Source: Candidatus Iainarchaeum sp. (GTDB lineage Archaea; Iainarchaeota; Iainarchaeia; Iainarchaeales; GCA-2688035). Taken from it: DNA of 64,000 nt. The notes under the pieces were generated by a model. It saw nothing but the letters and a program-made list of their open reading frames with translations, ran no database searches and had not been told where the DNA came from. Each line of letters opens with the position of its first letter. Position 1 is the stretch's first letter. Made by a program: the position numbers and the translations under genes. Shown one piece after another: positions 8,541-16,258 of this stretch. The stretch covers positions 26,797 to 90,796 of the forward strand of contig NZBU01000012.1 of NCBI GenBank assembly GCA_002688035.1. Reading direction: 5' to 3'.

Positions 8541-9593
8541 ATGGTTTCATCAACCACTATATATGGTTTCAGCTCCAATGTTTGCGGTGATTTTGTGAAA
8601 AAAGAAGTTTCTTTGAAAATAAGTGGGATGCATTGCACCAGCTGCGAAAAGCTAATTCAAGACGGACTCTTGGAGCTCGAGGGTGTGGAAACTGTCCAAG
8701 TTAGTTTTGCAAATGAAAAAGCCAAAGTGGTTTTTGATGATAAAAAAGTCTCGCTTGACAAAATAGAGGGGGAAGTGCTGGAGCTTGGCTATGAAGTAAA
8801 AGGAAGCTCTGACAGCTCTACCAAAACAAAGAACACCACGGCCCAAAAGATGTCTATAAGGCAAGGTATTGTTTATGGCCTGGTTCCGCACATTGGATGC
8901 ATTGGTTTTATTGTGGCTTCAATTCTCGGAGCCACGATTGCGGTTGAATTCTTCAAGCCACTGCTCATGAATCCATGGTTCTTTCACATTCTCATATTGA
9001 TTTCAATCGGCTTTGCAACACTCTCCTCGGCATTCTATCTTAGAAAGCAAGGCATATTCTCAATGCAGGGCATTAAAAGAAAAAAGAAATATCTAGCCAC
9101 AATGTATGGGAGTACAGTTGGAATAAACCTAATCCTGTTCCTAGTGATTTTCCCGATGCTTGCAAACCTTGACACAGGATCTTTTGCCAATCCTACGGGT
9201 ATGGTTACCTTAGCGGGAGCGCAAGGCAATTCAACTGCTTCAGATTCACTTCTGCGTTTACAATCAAACATTCCTTGCCCAGGGCACGCTCCTTTAATCT
9301 CTGGCGAACTCAAGAGCATTGAGGGGATAACAGGGGTAAAGTATGAGTTTCCGAATTATTTTGATGTTGCATTTGACTCAAGCAAGACATCAAAGGATAA
9401 AATATTTGCTCTTGAGGTTTTTGAGATTTACACCGCAACACTAATAAGTGAGTCTCTTCCAGATCCAGAGGAGAAAGTTTCTTTCGCAGCAATACAAGAG
9501 GTTGAATCTCTTGGAACAGGAAACGTTCAGCCTTCAGGAACCTGTGGAGGGACTTGTGGCGGTGGCTGTGGTGGCTGCGGCTGTGGTGGATAA
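8541..9593 (+). CDS. HMA-domain membrane protein with Gly/Cys-rich tail
   Basis: ISGMHCTSCEKLIQDGLLELEGVETVQVSFANEKAKV; several TM; C-terminus GTCGGTCGGGCGGCGCGG. Confidence 0.75.
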   Translation: MVSSTTIYGFSSNVCGDFVKKEVSLKISGMHCTSCEKLIQDGLLELEGVETVQVSFANEKAKVVFDDKKVSLDKIEGEVLELGYEVKGSSDSSTKTKNTTAQKMSIRQGIVYGLVPHIGCIGFIVASILGATIAVEFFKPLLMNPWFFHILILISIGFATLSSAFYLRKQGIFSMQGIKRKKKYLATMYGSTVGINLILFLVIFPMLANLDTGSFANPTGMVTLAGAQGNSTASDSLLRLQSNIPCPGHAPLISGELKSIEGITGVKYEFPNYFDVAFDSSKTSKDKIFALEVFEIYTATLISESLPDPEEKVSFAAIQEVESLGTGNVQPSGTCGGTCGGGCGGCGCGG

Positions 9594-9617: not shown

Positions 9618-10082
9618 ATGAAAATGGTGAATAAGGCAATATTTTTTACAGCGCTTCTGGCATTGCTGGTAGTTTCCGGATGTACATCGAACAATCCAAA
9701 CAGTGCAACAGATGCTGCAGACAATTCTGAACAAGCAACTTTTTCAATTCCTGTTGCAAGTATTGGCCAAGAAGCCAAGTGGTATGAGTATGAGTCAAAC
9801 GGCACTACGATAAGATTCTTTGCGGTAAAGGGTAGTGATGGTAGTGTGAAGACTGCGTTTGACGCTTGTGATGTTTGCAATTACTCTAAAAAAGGTTATT
9901 CGCAGCAAGGCAATTTTATGGTTTGCAATAATTGCGGGAACAAGTATCCAATTGATGGTCTTGGAACAGAGAACAAGAGACCTGGCGGATGCTGGCCAAG
10001 CTATTTGCCAAACGAAGTAGTTGGCGAAAATATTGTGATACAGAAAGCCAATCTCGAGAAAGGCAGTGCTTTCTTTGCTTAA
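9618..10082 (+). CDS. DUF2318-like Fe-S/metal lipoprotein
   Basis: Lipobox VVSGC; DACDVCNYSKKGYSQQGNFMVCNNCGNKYPIDGLG...GGCWPSYLP. Confidence 0.8.
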   Translation: MKMVNKAIFFTALLALLVVSGCTSNNPNSATDAADNSEQATFSIPVASIGQEAKWYEYESNGTTIRFFAVKGSDGSVKTAFDACDVCNYSKKGYSQQGNFMVCNNCGNKYPIDGLGTENKRPGGCWPSYLPNEVVGENIVIQKANLEKGSAFFA

Positions 10083-10145: not shown

Positions 10146-12389
10146 GTGGGAAAGGAAAAAATCGAGACAGCAGGCATTCCAATTCAGGGAATGCATTGCG
10201 CAGCCTGTGCCGTAAGAATAGAGAAGGCATTGCATAAATCACAGGGCGTTGTAAAGGCTAACGTGAATTTTGCCAATGAAAAAGCCACCGTTGAATTTAA
10301 CCCTGCTAACTCCAGTCTTGAAGAAATCTATAATATAATAAAGGATGAGGGCTACGGTATTGTGCAGGGTGGTAAGGATAGTGAGAAAGAAGCAAGGCAG
10401 AAAGAAGTAAGTGATTACAAGAGAAAAGTTATTCTGGCTTTCTTGTTGAGCAGTCCGTTAATGTATATTATGATGGCTTCAATGCTTGGCTGGCCAATAC
10501 CGCAGATTATTATTGATAACAACGCGCTTGCACAATTCCTGCTCGCAACCCCTGTACTGATTGTCGGAAGACATTTCTTCATCCAGGGTTTCAAATCTCT
10601 GTTTAGACTAGTGCCTGACATGAACTCTCTTGTTGCAATAGGAGTAGGCTCTGCCTATACATACAGTTTTGTTGTAACAGTCTTCATATTATCAGGTTCA
10701 ACGCTTTTCTCTGCAATGGACTTATACTATGAGGTTGCTGCTTTTCTGATAAGCTTCATTCTTTTGGGGCGCTATTTTGAGGCAATTGCAAAGGGTAGGA
10801 CTTCCGAGGCGATAAAGAAGCTTTTAGGGTTACAGGTAAAGACTGCTCTTGTTGAAAGAGAGGGCAGGGAGATGGAGGTTCCTATAGAGAACGTTAAGGT
10901 TGGTGACATAGTGATTGTAAAGCCTGGCCAAAAAATTCCTGTGGACGGGAAAATCGTGAGTGGGCACAGCAGTGTTGATGAGTCAATGATTACAGGGGAA
11001 AGCATTCCAGTGGAAAAGATTGTTGGTGACACAGTGATTGGTGCAACCCTCAACAAAACCGGGAGCTTCAAGTTCAAGGCTGAGAAAGTAGGTAAAGATA
11101 CTGCTCTCTCTCAAATAATAAAGCTTGTGGAGGATGCCCAGGCAAGTAAGGCACCAATCCAGGATCTTGCTGACAAAATTTCAAATTACTTTGTGCCAAC
11201 TGTAATGGGGATTGCCATAATCGCGGCCTTAGCCTGGTTTTTTGTCGGTCAAGGTTTTCTTTTCTCTCTTGCAATTTTTATCACGGTTCTTATAATTGCT
11301 TGTCCCTGTGCAATGGGTCTTGCTACTCCAACCGCCGTAATGGTTGGAACAGGTAAAGGTGCGGAACAAGGAATACTTATAAAAAGTGCTGCATCTCTCC
11401 AAAAAGCCCAGGAGATTAATACGGTTGTATTTGATAAAACAGGCACGCTCACAAAAGGGGAACCCGAAGTAACTGACATATTTACTGAATCCTTGTCAAA
11501 GAAAGAAGTTTTGATGTATGCGGCTGTAGCAGAAAAGCGTTCAGAGCATCCTCTTGGAGAATCAATTGTGAACAAGGCAAAACAACAAAAGATTGTGCTA
11601 AAAGACCCAGCTAAATTTAATTCAATAACTGGCAAGGGTGTTGAAGCTAGTTTAGAAGGAAAAAATATTCTGCTTGGAAATCGCGCTTTAATGAAGGAAC
11701 GTAACATTTCGGTGGAAAAGTTTGAACCTAAGCTTGCTGAGTTTGAGTCAGATGGGAAAACTGCAATGCTTGTTGCAGTTAACAAAACTGCTGTTGGAAT
11801 AGTGGCGGTTGCAGATACTCTTAAAGAGTATTCAAAAGAAGCGGTTACAGCACTTCACCAAATGGGGAAACAGGTCGTGATGATTACCGGAGACAATAAG
11901 AGAACCGGTGAAGCAATAGCAAGACAGGTTGGAATCGATAAGGTTCTTGCAGAGGTGCTCCCCGAGGATAAAGCAAATGAGGTGAAGAAGCTTCAAAACA
12001 CAGGAGCAAAAGTTGCAATGGTTGGAGACGGTATAAATGATGCTCCTGCCCTTGTGCAGGCTGATGTTGGAATAGCAATTGGTTCAGGAACGGACATTGC
12101 AATTGAATCAGGAGACATAGTTCTTGTAAAAGATGATCTAAGAGACGTTGTGGTTGCAATAGACTTGAGTAGGTATGCAATGAACAAAATAAAGCAAAAT
12201 TTCTTCTGGGCTTTTGTCTACAACGTTGTTGGCATTCCAGTTGCAGCAGGTCTACTATACCCTTTCACCGGTTTGCTTTTGAGTCCTGTTATTGCAGGAA
12301 CCGCAATGGCTTTCAGTTCTGTAAGTGTGGTAAGCAATTCATTACTCATGAAACGCTATAAACCCAAAATAAAGACTCGCGGAAATTAA
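10146..12389 (+). CDS. copA: Copper-translocating P-type ATPase
   Basis: [59 protein letters not shown]. Confidence 0.95.
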
Positions 12390-13005: not shown

Positions 13006-14091
13006 TTATCCAAGTTCTTTAAACTCAATGCCTTTTCCAAGCGCAGCCATTTCTCTGAACACATAACTTCCGTCTTCTTCCCGTGTTCCAAGGCGCTGCA
13101 TCCAAATGCTTTCAAATGAAGGGTATATTGAGAGTTCTCCCTTCAGCACGATGGCCGGAACTTTTCCAATATTATAATCCTGAATTAAATCTGCCCCCTC
13201 GGTAGAACTAACATCAATTGTCTGCTCTTCTCCGATTGCGACAGCAAATCTTCCAAGAATGTTTTTGTGAACCATTACATCGTAACAATTCTCACAACTT
13301 TCATCAGCAAGATAGATAATATCAATTAGTCCCTTGGTTTCCCCATTAGTAACATCGATGTAGGGTGGTGCGCTTTCAATTATATAGTAACCACTTTCTG
13401 CCTGCAGACCAGCACTTTTAAGGCTGTCTAGGATTAGTGGGTAAGCATCGATATCATCTGAGAGTAATAGTGCAGGGGCCTTTCCAATACTGTAAGTCGT
13501 GGTAAGCTCCTTTCCCTCATCTGTTGCATAACCAACTGCCTTTTCTTCACCAACAAACACGCCATTCTCTGTCAACGAGTCAATAAAATAGCTTACATCT
13601 GCACAAACTTCACACTCATCAGCTTCAAGGATTATTGCCACGACTTTTCCAACAGTTTTGCCTGAACCAGTATCCTCGTAAGGGGCTGTTGGCTTGTCAA
13701 ACACAAGTGTCTCTCCCCTCTCCTCAAAGCCGTTTGCATTTACCCTTTCAACTTCTCCTTTGAGCACAATTGCTGGTAAACGCTTTATTCCTAATTCAAC
13801 TATAAGCTCTTTTGCTGCCGCAGAGTCTGCCTTTAGCCTTGTCTCACTTAGAATATTTAGGTCAGAGTTCTTGAGATTTGCTTCTGTTCCAGAAGCAGTT
13901 ACACATTCTTTACAGGAAGAGTCAATCAAAACAAGGTCTACTTTTGGAGAGGCTGACGCAAGCTTTACTTCCTCAAGCTTTGCTTTAAAGCTCTCTGAAA
14001 CTTGTGGAACAGTAAACACATTGAACAATACTAGTGCGAGTAATATCCCCATTCCTGCGTATAGGATTGTTTCGATTTCCTTATCCTTCAT
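13006..14091 (-). CDS. Secreted/membrane-anchored protein with three thioredoxin-like CxxC repeats
   Basis: CKEC, CEVC, CENC motifs each followed by a LPAIVLKGE/APALLLSDD/VPAIVLKGE segment. Confidence 0.75.
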   Translation of the reverse strand: MKDKEIETILYAGMGILLALVLFNVFTVPQVSESFKAKLEEVKLASASPKVDLVLIDSSCKECVTASGTEANLKNSDLNILSETRLKADSAAAKELIVELGIKRLPAIVLKGEVERVNANGFEERGETLVFDKPTAPYEDTGSGKTVGKVVAIILEADECEVCADVSYFIDSLTENGVFVGEEKAVGYATDEGKELTTTYSIGKAPALLLSDDIDAYPLILDSLKSAGLQAESGYYIIESAPPYIDVTNGETKGLIDIIYLADESCENCYDVMVHKNILGRFAVAIGEEQTIDVSSTEGADLIQDYNIGKVPAIVLKGELSIYPSFESIWMQRLGTREEDGSYVFREMAALGKGIEFKELG

Positions 14092-14103
14092 TTAAAAACA
14101 CCA

Positions 14104-14352
14104 CTAGCATCCGCCAACCATATTTGGAAGACTTTGTAGGTTATTCTGCAAATTACTTGAAGACGAAACTTTGACAGTGTCTTCTGACTGCAGGCTTAAA
14201 CCATCAAATTCATTGTTTATTTGTTCTTTAAGGTCTGCCAACTCAATTGCTTGCACGCCTGAAAATATTATCAGCAAGCCAAGCACGGCCATTAATACAA
14301 GAACTTTTGTGTTAGCTCCGGCCTTTTCGCTTTTCTTTGTTTCTACAACCAT
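14104..14352 (-). CDS. Small single-TM protein ending in LPNMVGGC
   Basis: 82 aa, TM at N-terminus, C-term ...SNLQNNLQSLPNMVGGC*. Confidence 0.7.
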   Translation of the reverse strand: MVVETKKSEKAGANTKVLVLMAVLGLLIIFSGVQAIELADLKEQINNEFDGLSLQSEDTVKVSSSSNLQNNLQSLPNMVGGC

Positions 14353-14353
14353 T

Positions 14354-15757
14354 TTAACAACCTCCTACCATTCCTGGTAAGTCTTTTAATTGTGAAGGGT
14401 CCTGCCCTGAAACCTGCACTCCCAAAGAAACCATATCTTGTGGGAACCACAATGTTTTCCAGCGCATAACCTCTCTCAAAACTTCTGCATCAGAGTACTC
14501 TGTGTCTCTCATTAAACCCAGTGTTATTGCTAACAGTGCTGGGTTGTGCTGACAACCACATTTTGATTTTCCAACCTCATTAATTCCCTGCGGTCCTATC
14601 CCACAGCAGTACTCACAGCTTATTCCACGGGGGGCCGCAGCTAATTTTAAGTAGCGCTGCCATACTTCAGGACTATTTTGCTCAACCTCGTCTGTAAATG
14701 AGTAATACCATTTAGCCAAGTAATTCAAACTGTTCACAGGATCGTCAAAAGTAATTCCCCCAAGTTCCTCACTATAGGGTGGAGTGCCAGTAGGGTACAT
14801 TGTTGCCATAACATCCTGGTCAGTTTTCGCACTCTTTAATTCCGGGAAAACTGTTGCAACTGCCATTGCTGTACTGTTTACTTCAAAAACATTTACTTTT
14901 GAAAGGTCTGCCCCGCCTACTCCATAGCCACCAGATGCCTTGGCCAGTGCCAAATCAAATGATTCTGAAATATCCCAAATTTGAACCTGGTTAAATAAAA
15001 GAATTGCAGTAACTACAAGCACACTGGCCATCAAAACATTATCCATACCCGGGCTTAGTATTGGTTTTGTTCCTGTTGTTGGGCAGGCAAGGCACTCTTT
15101 TGAATTAAGTTTGTATGATGCAAACACTAACAATGCAAGTGAAAGAACTTTTACTTCAAGTCCCTCTAACGGGAATATGGTCAGTCCTGCACCCACTCCA
15201 ACTAATGAAAGAACCAATGCGCCACAACTTGGGCAGCCCATTCCAACACCTGCAGCCACTATTCCCCCAAGGCCTGATGCACTTCCTTCTGGGTTGCGCA
15301 TGATATTGTAAGCATTAACAATCAGTAAGCTGGATAATGGAATTATAATAGCCAGCGGCAAAAAATTAACAAACGTGTATTTGAACCCGCTCATCTCGGT
15401 ATAGGAAAAGAGGCTGTATGAGGTGTTTGACAGCATCAGAATATAAGTGAGAATATATAGTGCGCCAGTCGTTCCAATGAATGCAAGCAGTCTTTTGTCA
15501 GTTGAAATAACGTGCTTGAATTTGTATGCGATAACTGTTGTTGCTAGCCCAAGTAAGAGTGAAACGCTTCCTGCAACTAGAAGAGTAAGCAAAGCGTACC
15601 TGCGCGAATTCTCCATGAAATAATTAAAAAGCAAAAATTGGCTGAATGGAAATGCCATTGTTAATATGGCAAAAAGCAAAAACGATCCAATGGTTACCCC
15701 GGTAAATATTTTCGCGTATTTTTTGTCAGCTAATAACTTTTTGGCAATTGGCAACAT
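14354..15757 (-). CDS. Polytopic membrane protein with CPSCG, CEYCCG, CGCQHN and C-terminal LPGMVGGC
   Basis: 467 aa; MGCPSCGALVLSLVGVG; ISCEYCCGIGPQGINEVGKSKCGCQHNPALLAI; ...LKDLPGMVGGC*. Confidence 0.75.
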   Translation of the reverse strand: MLPIAKKLLADKKYAKIFTGVTIGSFLLFAILTMAFPFSQFLLFNYFMENSRRYALLTLLVAGSVSLLLGLATTVIAYKFKHVISTDKRLLAFIGTTGALYILTYILMLSNTSYSLFSYTEMSGFKYTFVNFLPLAIIIPLSSLLIVNAYNIMRNPEGSASGLGGIVAAGVGMGCPSCGALVLSLVGVGAGLTIFPLEGLEVKVLSLALLVFASYKLNSKECLACPTTGTKPILSPGMDNVLMASVLVVTAILLFNQVQIWDISESFDLALAKASGGYGVGGADLSKVNVFEVNSTAMAVATVFPELKSAKTDQDVMATMYPTGTPPYSEELGGITFDDPVNSLNYLAKWYYSFTDEVEQNSPEVWQRYLKLAAAPRGISCEYCCGIGPQGINEVGKSKCGCQHNPALLAITLGLMRDTEYSDAEVLREVMRWKTLWFPQDMVSLGVQVSGQDPSQLKDLPGMVGGC

Positions 15758-15941: not shown

Positions 15942-16052
15942 ATGGGGGCTGGATGTGGTTCCGAAGATCACGATAGTAAGGCAGAAGCTGGTCATAGTTG
16001 TCCTTGTGGTAGCGGCAAGAAGTATGAGGAATGTTGCGGAAGAGAGGAGTAA
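15942..16052 (+). CDS. SEC-C motif microprotein (36 aa)
   Basis: MGAGCGSEDHDSKAEAGHSCPCGSGKKYEECCGREE*, below ORF-track cutoff. Confidence 0.8.
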   Translation: MGAGCGSEDHDSKAEAGHSCPCGSGKKYEECCGREE

Positions 16053-16258
16053 CTAATTAGAAATACAAAAAATTCCTCTTCTTTTAATTGCCGGTCTGCT
16101 CATAATAGTTGGCTTGGCATATTTTGTTTATCAAGGATTGCCTATTTCTCAGTATGCTGACTTTGATAGTTCTTGGTATGCCCCAAGAGCCTTGCAAAAG
16201 AAGTTATAATCTTTACTACAGATTAGACAAATAGGCAAAAAAAGAATTGTGATGCTTA

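Follow-up and report, generated by a model that had tools for sequence, protein, structure and literature searches.

A C-terminal MVGGC tail shared by membrane proteins of DPANN-type archaea probably marks a previously undescribed, copper-handling cell-surface thiol system

We observed that two adjacent membrane proteins encoded in the window (the whole stretch of 64,000 nucleotides that was analysed) share a C-terminal MVGGC tail, and that this tail marks what is probably a previously undescribed cell-surface thiol system that handles copper. The earlier note had read the tail as a functional site of an extracytoplasmic redox/metal system, and this reading is supported by the conservation and exclusivity of the tail, and by the thiol-redox genes (CcdA-like, multi-thioredoxin and DsbA) and copper genes (CopA and CuA) that accompany it. 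Among the three roles that had been suggested for it, i.e. a swinging thiol, a metal-transfer ligand or a modification site, the evidence leans towards a thiol arm in copper and thiol traffic.

In the window, the tail is found in a compact run of three minus-strand genes that encode proteins of 467, 82 and 361 aa, with gaps of 1 and 12 bases between them. The ORF translations bore out the shared ending, since the 467-aa protein (14354..15757) ends in LKDLPGMVGGC and the 82-aa protein (14104..14352) in LQSLPNMVGGC; the tails themselves occupy 14357..14371 (residues 463-467) and 14107..14121 (residues 78-82). As judged from its TM segments and Cys motifs, the large protein comprises an N-terminal polytopic module (residues 1-232, 15062..15757, from phmmer) with the motifs CPSC (residue 175) and CLAC (residue 222), a TM anchor, a predicted extracytoplasmic Cys module (approximately residues 305-445, 14423..14845, from the HMM and alignment of 94 homologues) and the MVGGC tail. 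The Cys module contains CEYCC (residues 381-385, 14603..14617) and CGCQH (residues 400-404, 14546..14560), both assigned by motif and alignment, and all three Cys motifs named previously (CPSCG, CEYCCG and CGCQHN) could thus be located. The small protein has a single N-in TM helix (residues 18-36, 14245..14301, from hydropathy), a low-complexity linker and the tail. Neither tail protein matched a family in Pfam or NCBIfam. Between this operon and the next gene, at approximately 15942-16055 on the plus strand, lies a 37-aa ORF that consists of little more than one SEC-C-like motif (CPCGSGKKYEECCG).

The first search with the large protein covered 59 relatives; the matches were to its C-terminal half, and a small protein with the same ending was present beside almost every one of them. 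The distribution was estimated across two DPANN-type phyla, using 473 genomes in non-overlapping sets of 93 (the window's phylum) and 380 (the one to which the Woesearchaeota MAG ETNP3_MAG_14 belongs). An HMM built from the C-terminal Cys module of the large protein (A1) was positive in 126 of the 473 genomes (21/93 in the window's phylum and 105/380 in the other). The tail was searched for independently, using the exact DNA pattern for MVGGC-stop, ATGGTNGGNGGNTGYTRR, with the reversed pattern as the control. This pattern was found in 119 of the 473 genomes (20/93 and 99/380, respectively), and the control gave 3 stray matches among the 380 genomes and none among the 93. All 119 tail-pattern genomes were also positive for the module (99/99 and 20/20), and the pattern was absent from the 347 module-negative genomes (0/275 and 0/72). 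The seven module-positive genomes that lacked the exact pattern were G052 and G104 (both with QVGGC), G294, G439 and G451 (where the module matches were weak and only partial), G173 and G415. Of the 150 tail sites listed, 148 had a large protein within 1.9 kb, and the remaining two were on a contig edge. From the overlap of the genome lists and this proximity we conclude that, in the 473 genomes searched, the tail is specific to this type of locus; MVGGC ends scattered at random among unrelated proteins were not seen. The codons varied at every degenerate position between tail copies, and the conservation therefore acts at the amino-acid level. Chance or a codon artefact as the source of the shared tail was ruled out by the reversed-pattern control and the varied codons.

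Searches of plasmids and viral contigs gave no match, and a species-wide contig search with the window protein gave one close relative only. The window Cys module (14357-14971) was 47-54% identical to A4 homologues, most of which belong to the other phylum (e.g. L024 and L170-L182), and only about 30% identical to most homologues of its own order. The tail locus was also absent from 17 other genomes of the window's family. This higher cross-phylum identity, along with the absence from the family, suggests that the window locus may have been acquired horizontally.

We examined approximately 100 distinct small proteins. Their median length was 78 aa, 98 of 100 had one predicted TM segment, and the positive-inside rule predicted an N-in topology for 67 and N-out for 9. 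The layout was one TM helix followed by a variable low-complexity linker and the tail. The sequence entropy was near zero across the last five residues and above 2 bits at position -6, although the small proteins were chosen by their VGGC end and the invariance of the last four residues is partly by construction. Some of them carry additional motifs, either the M/H-rich W-T-E-x-E-K-M-x-Y-E-H/M-H-G or N-terminal CC/His stretches. On account of the N-in helix, the low-complexity linker and the tail, these proteins appear to be made for presenting a thiol, at their C-terminus, on the outside of the membrane.

The unbiased evidence for the tail comes from the genome-level exclusivity and from the large proteins, which were selected by HMM: 79 of 94 had the VGGC end, and about 15 had no tail or a divergent one. 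Taken with the roughly 100 small proteins, this establishes that the tail is kept in homologues of both genes. The earlier note had taken LP[NG]MVGGC as the shared unit; the 'LP' is not kept in the homologues, and the conserved unit is [M/Q]-V-G-[G/S]-C-COOH. In the alignment of the 94 large proteins, C119, C122, C123, C138, C140 and H142 (C-x2-CC...C-x-C-x-H) were invariant, as were two residues of a G-x-P motif. The terminal Cys was retained in the tail variants QVGGC, QVGSC (the end of the small neighbours of two second-copy large proteins) and MIGAC, and it is the sole chemically reactive residue that never varied among them. A few systems have Gln in place of the Met, which is therefore not an obligatory copper ligand; copper ligation by the tail Met would be optional.

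This pattern of conservation also bears on whether the tail might be a docking or oligomerisation peptide, which would fit the groove of a shared partner, or hold the complex through a disulfide between small and large tails, with no transfer of metal or electrons. The Val and both Gly residues are nearly invariant while the Met is replaceable, the tail is common to large and small proteins that are encoded together, and a small protein keeps the tail in most loci whose large protein has lost it (11 of 13 counted), all of which would suit such a peptide. An invariant terminal Cys beside thioredoxin and CcdA-type enzymes speaks for chemistry more than for binding alone, and we consider docking alone to be improbable.

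The large protein of the window is a fusion of the polytopic CPSC module with the Cys module, the former being a separate gene elsewhere. With residues 1-232 of the window's large protein, phmmer gave matches to a CP[ST]CG-type membrane protein that is encoded by a gene of its own in at least ten further MVGGC loci (L168, L159, L166, L102, L163, L155, L033, L027, L150, L029 and L165). The AlphaFold model of the Cys module, made with one additional sequence (L024), had a pLDDT of 50, and a sequence search of the PDB with the 94-member profile of the module returned leucine-rich-repeat noise only. Two divergent members were also seen: L191:6161-7030 ends in PDQVGGCF, one residue past the Cys, and has lost the CxxCC motif, and L074:38-658 is a paralogue with a MIGAC end in which a lipobox-like N-terminal start replaces the plain TM helix.

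A short, sharply bounded and exactly conserved end on otherwise dissimilar proteins, placed after a variable linker, could also be expected of a modification or anchoring signal, with the C-terminal Cys being lipidated, prenylated, thioester-forming or transpeptidated (as in CaaX and Rab -GGCC tails, or archaeosortase signals). But the tail proteins already have an N-terminal TM anchor, and a C-terminal TM/basic sorting signal is absent. Sorting and lipidation signals are usually present on many proteins per genome, whereas this tail is limited to one locus type. No candidate for a modifying enzyme, and no enzyme family common to all loci, was present among the neighbours of the 78 MVGGC loci surveyed. 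A dedicated enzyme among these neighbours, and several unrelated substrates per genome, as characterize CaaX/Rab-type prenylation and archaeosortase systems, were not seen, and a modification signal seems quite unlikely.

For the 78 MVGGC loci, the genes up to 9 positions away were clustered. The neighbours included a polytopic CcdA-like protein with two invariant Cys (48/78 loci), a TM-anchored DUF7343/MarR regulator with two conserved Cys (44/78), a polytopic CPxC protein (44/78), a polytopic ACC-x-H protein (31/78), a multi-thioredoxin protein of the same family as the 361-aa protein of the window (29/78), DsbA (17/78), and an M48/M56 peptidase with a Penicillinase_R/BlaI repressor (12-13/78). 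The earlier note had asked if the tail co-occurs with the multi-CxxC protein, and the 29 loci answer this positively. In the CcdA/DsbD-like proteins (cluster 1), which are polytopic, a Cys near the N-terminus (PC) and a mid-protein Cys were conserved in 36/37 and 37/37 sequences, respectively. We call this neighbour only 'CcdA-like', since the one representative scanned had no Pfam match at E 0.01. The divergent BlaR1-like M48/M56 peptidase and BlaI genes (e.g. L037:776-1916, L039:2232-3337, L156:8216-8965 and L176:7540-7908) form a pair that could possibly sense the extracytoplasmic state.

The third gene of the window operon (13006..14091, minus strand) had been described as encoding three thioredoxin-like CxxC domains. 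We confirmed the three motifs (CKEC, CEVC and CENC) and could refine the description to a membrane-anchored, PDI/PDO-like protein. It has an N-terminal TM segment, and its matches to PDO_seleno_TRX (NCBIfam) and Thioredoxin_3 (Pfam) were weak and below the cut-off. The AlphaFold (AF2) model had three thioredoxin-like units (pLDDT 76), and Foldseek matched it to the archaeal PDO 1a8l and to eukaryotic PDIs. The whole-chain TM-scores were low, since the relative placement of the domains is unreliable in the model, and only the fold identity was used. Repeated thioredoxin folds with CxxC motifs, as seen here, are the defining feature of the PDI/PDO multi-thioredoxin proteins.

With CcdA-like, multi-thioredoxin and DsbA proteins as the commonest enzyme neighbours, the system might be a pure thiol-disulfide shuttle, in which the tail cysteine would act as a swinging redox thiol and carry electrons between CcdA/thioredoxin and the disulfides of surface proteins, copper being secondary. 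The redox neighbours do outnumber the copper markers, and the terminal Cys is invariant whereas the Met varies. However, there is one Cys per arm, so that no disulfide is possible within an arm. A shuttle also leaves unexplained the enrichment of CopA and CuA (see below), and the His, CC and Met motifs of the small proteins. We therefore regard it as doubtful that the shuttle is the whole function.

A copper marker (CopA, CuA, cupredoxin or YHS) was present within 9 genes in 27 of the 78 loci, and none was present in 51. At the genome level, the association was evaluated in the phylum of 380 genomes (99 with the tail and 281 without). CopA, called as TIGR01511 above its cut-off, was present in 88/99 tail-positive (89%) vs 139/281 tail-negative (49%) genomes (OR 8.2, p 5e-13, uncorrected for shared ancestry). 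CuA-like lipoproteins, called at E<=1e-20, were present in 56/99 (57%) vs 43/281 (15%) (OR 7.2, p 1e-14, likewise uncorrected for shared ancestry). All five CuA side-chain ligands (His, Cys, Cys, His and Met) were invariant in these proteins, and in 20 of the 56 genomes their gene and that of the large protein were no more than 10 kb apart. The CuA protein was undetected in about 43% of the tail-positive genomes, and the window's own MAG, which is 61% complete, gave no CuA match. Genome incompleteness as a confounder of the CopA association was ruled out using ribosomal protein S12, which was found in 38/40 tail-positive vs 38/40 tail-negative genomes.

In the window, a Cu-type P1B ATPase (CopA-like, with an HMA domain and CPC; 10146..12389, plus strand) lies outside the operon but is associated with the system, about 0.6 kb past the end of the thioredoxin gene and across a convergent TrmO gene. 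Two other plus-strand genes precede it. The first (8541..9593) encodes an HMA domain, a MerT-like membrane segment and a second HMA-like PCPGH domain, and is a probable metal-handling neighbour; its product ends in a GTCGGTCGGGCGGCGCGG-like Cys/Gly-rich tail that could possibly bind metal. The second (9618..10082) encodes an FtrD-like (PF10080), lipoprotein-like protein with CxxC pairs.

MerT/HMA-like proteins of this kind (8541-9593 in the window, and also in L024 and L182), and the conserved Cys pairs of several polytopic neighbours, raise the question of whether the metal might be another soft metal such as mercury, silver or arsenic, moved by the MerT-like and CPxC membrane proteins and captured by the tail thiol. 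We consider this very improbable. P-type ATPases occur near 13 of the 78 loci and are mostly of the CPC copper type (two were of the CPH type), CuA is enriched in the tail-positive genomes, and MerA and ArsA were not noticed near the loci.

Together, these observations point to the tail as a tethered thiol, a flexible arm in an extracytoplasmic copper/thiol relay, a reading to which we give somewhat less than an even chance. The small proteins (N-in TM helix and Ser/Ala/Gly/Pro linker) and the larger partner (TM anchor, Cys module C-x2-CC...C-x-C-x-H, linker and MVGGC-COOH) would hold out an identical terminal cysteine on flexible arms at the outer side of the membrane, and the shared V-G-G-C peptide would be recognised by common partners. 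The CcdA-like carrier would feed cytoplasmic electrons to the thioredoxin-fold neighbours, and these would keep both the Cys module and the cysteines of the tails in the reduced state. In that state the arms would then hand on Cu(I), or thiol electrons for metallation, between an exporter or chaperone and extracytoplasmic cuproproteins (e.g. CuA-type lipoproteins). In this scheme copper as the metal, the direction of transfer, and a direct contact of the tail with the thioredoxin protein or the Cys module are what we infer from the sequences and the gene context. More tentatively, MVGGC on membrane stalks along with the Cys-rich partner may represent, in DPANN-type archaea, a protein-borne thiol cofactor, i.e. 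a tethered mimic of a low-molecular-weight thiol, which would take electrons from CcdA/thioredoxin and deliver Cu(I) to CuA and related cuproproteins.

Thioredoxin reductase (GCUG), MerA (CC) and ribonucleotide reductase (CxxxxC) are known to have swinging thiol arms at the C-terminus. Like these arms, the MVGGC tail puts a reactive thiol on a flexible C-terminal extension; however, theirs bear a Cys pair or Sec and belong to soluble enzymes, whereas MVGGC ends in one Cys and is carried by a dedicated membrane stalk and by the partner of that stalk. The PCYCGC proteins (PF13798) similarly have a Cys/His-rich domain in a membrane protein or lipoprotein and are occasional neighbours of the MVGGC locus, but they lack the tail. 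Homology of the Cys module to PCYCGC, considered because of the C/H spacing and the neighbourhood, was rejected (hhalign probability 0.3%, E 0.18, and no hmmscan match). An archaeal 'CCCKCWH' family (A6; L178 and L192-L194) shares the C-x-C-x-H segment with the Cys module (hhalign probability 95%), but has no tail and a different N-terminal half, and is uncharacterised. These tail-less relatives are membrane proteins with GGPCCCKCWHWYAYEGLAKYLI (L178:6482-7084, L192:5944-6471 and L194:6502-7113).

In the bacterial CuA assembly relay (TlpA, ScoI, PCuAC/PcuC and CcdA), TlpA reduces ScoI and CoxB ahead of copper insertion (PMC6696091). The MVGGC loci likewise have a membrane-anchored thioredoxin-fold reductase, a CcdA-like carrier, copper genes and a CuA protein nearby, and the genetic link to a CuA protein and thiol reductases that is expected of Sco/PCuAC-type chaperones was seen in the CuA association and in the CcdA-like and thioredoxin neighbours described above. 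However, homology to Sco or PCuAC-type copper chaperones was absent from the Cys module and the small proteins (in Pfam and NCBIfam, and in the PDB for the module), a free Cys peptide forms the C-terminus of the arms, a heme-copper oxidase was not noticed, and the hosts are reduced-genome archaea. NosZ-like CuA proteins have been reported in ODZ DPANN archaea without known electron-transport partners, in a study that names ETNP3_MAG_14, the MAG of L024 (PMC10936187). As far as the available text of that paper goes, these NosZ/Cox2-like proteins are of the same kind as the cupredoxins near the MVGGC loci, and it contains no description of the tail proteins. The MVGGC locus is a candidate for their partner system. 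A literature search for 'MVGGC' gave no relevant paper, and 'C-terminal GGC' gave unrelated uses only. Since the tail proteins have the defining features of no known family, and no known system with the tail was found, the system would appear to be categorically new, with thioredoxin, CcdA-like and CopA parts of known kinds.

The locus is present in about a quarter of the sampled genomes of two phyla, and has an invariant Cys chemistry with no annotated family. Being so exclusive, the tail serves as an almost error-free marker of the system in genomes. Few surface enzymes are known from DPANN archaea, whose genomes are reduced, and the locus offers a tractable entry to their extracellular copper and thiol handling. 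If the tail is indeed a protein-borne thiol cofactor, a reactive thiol would here be placed on a membrane surface in a new way.
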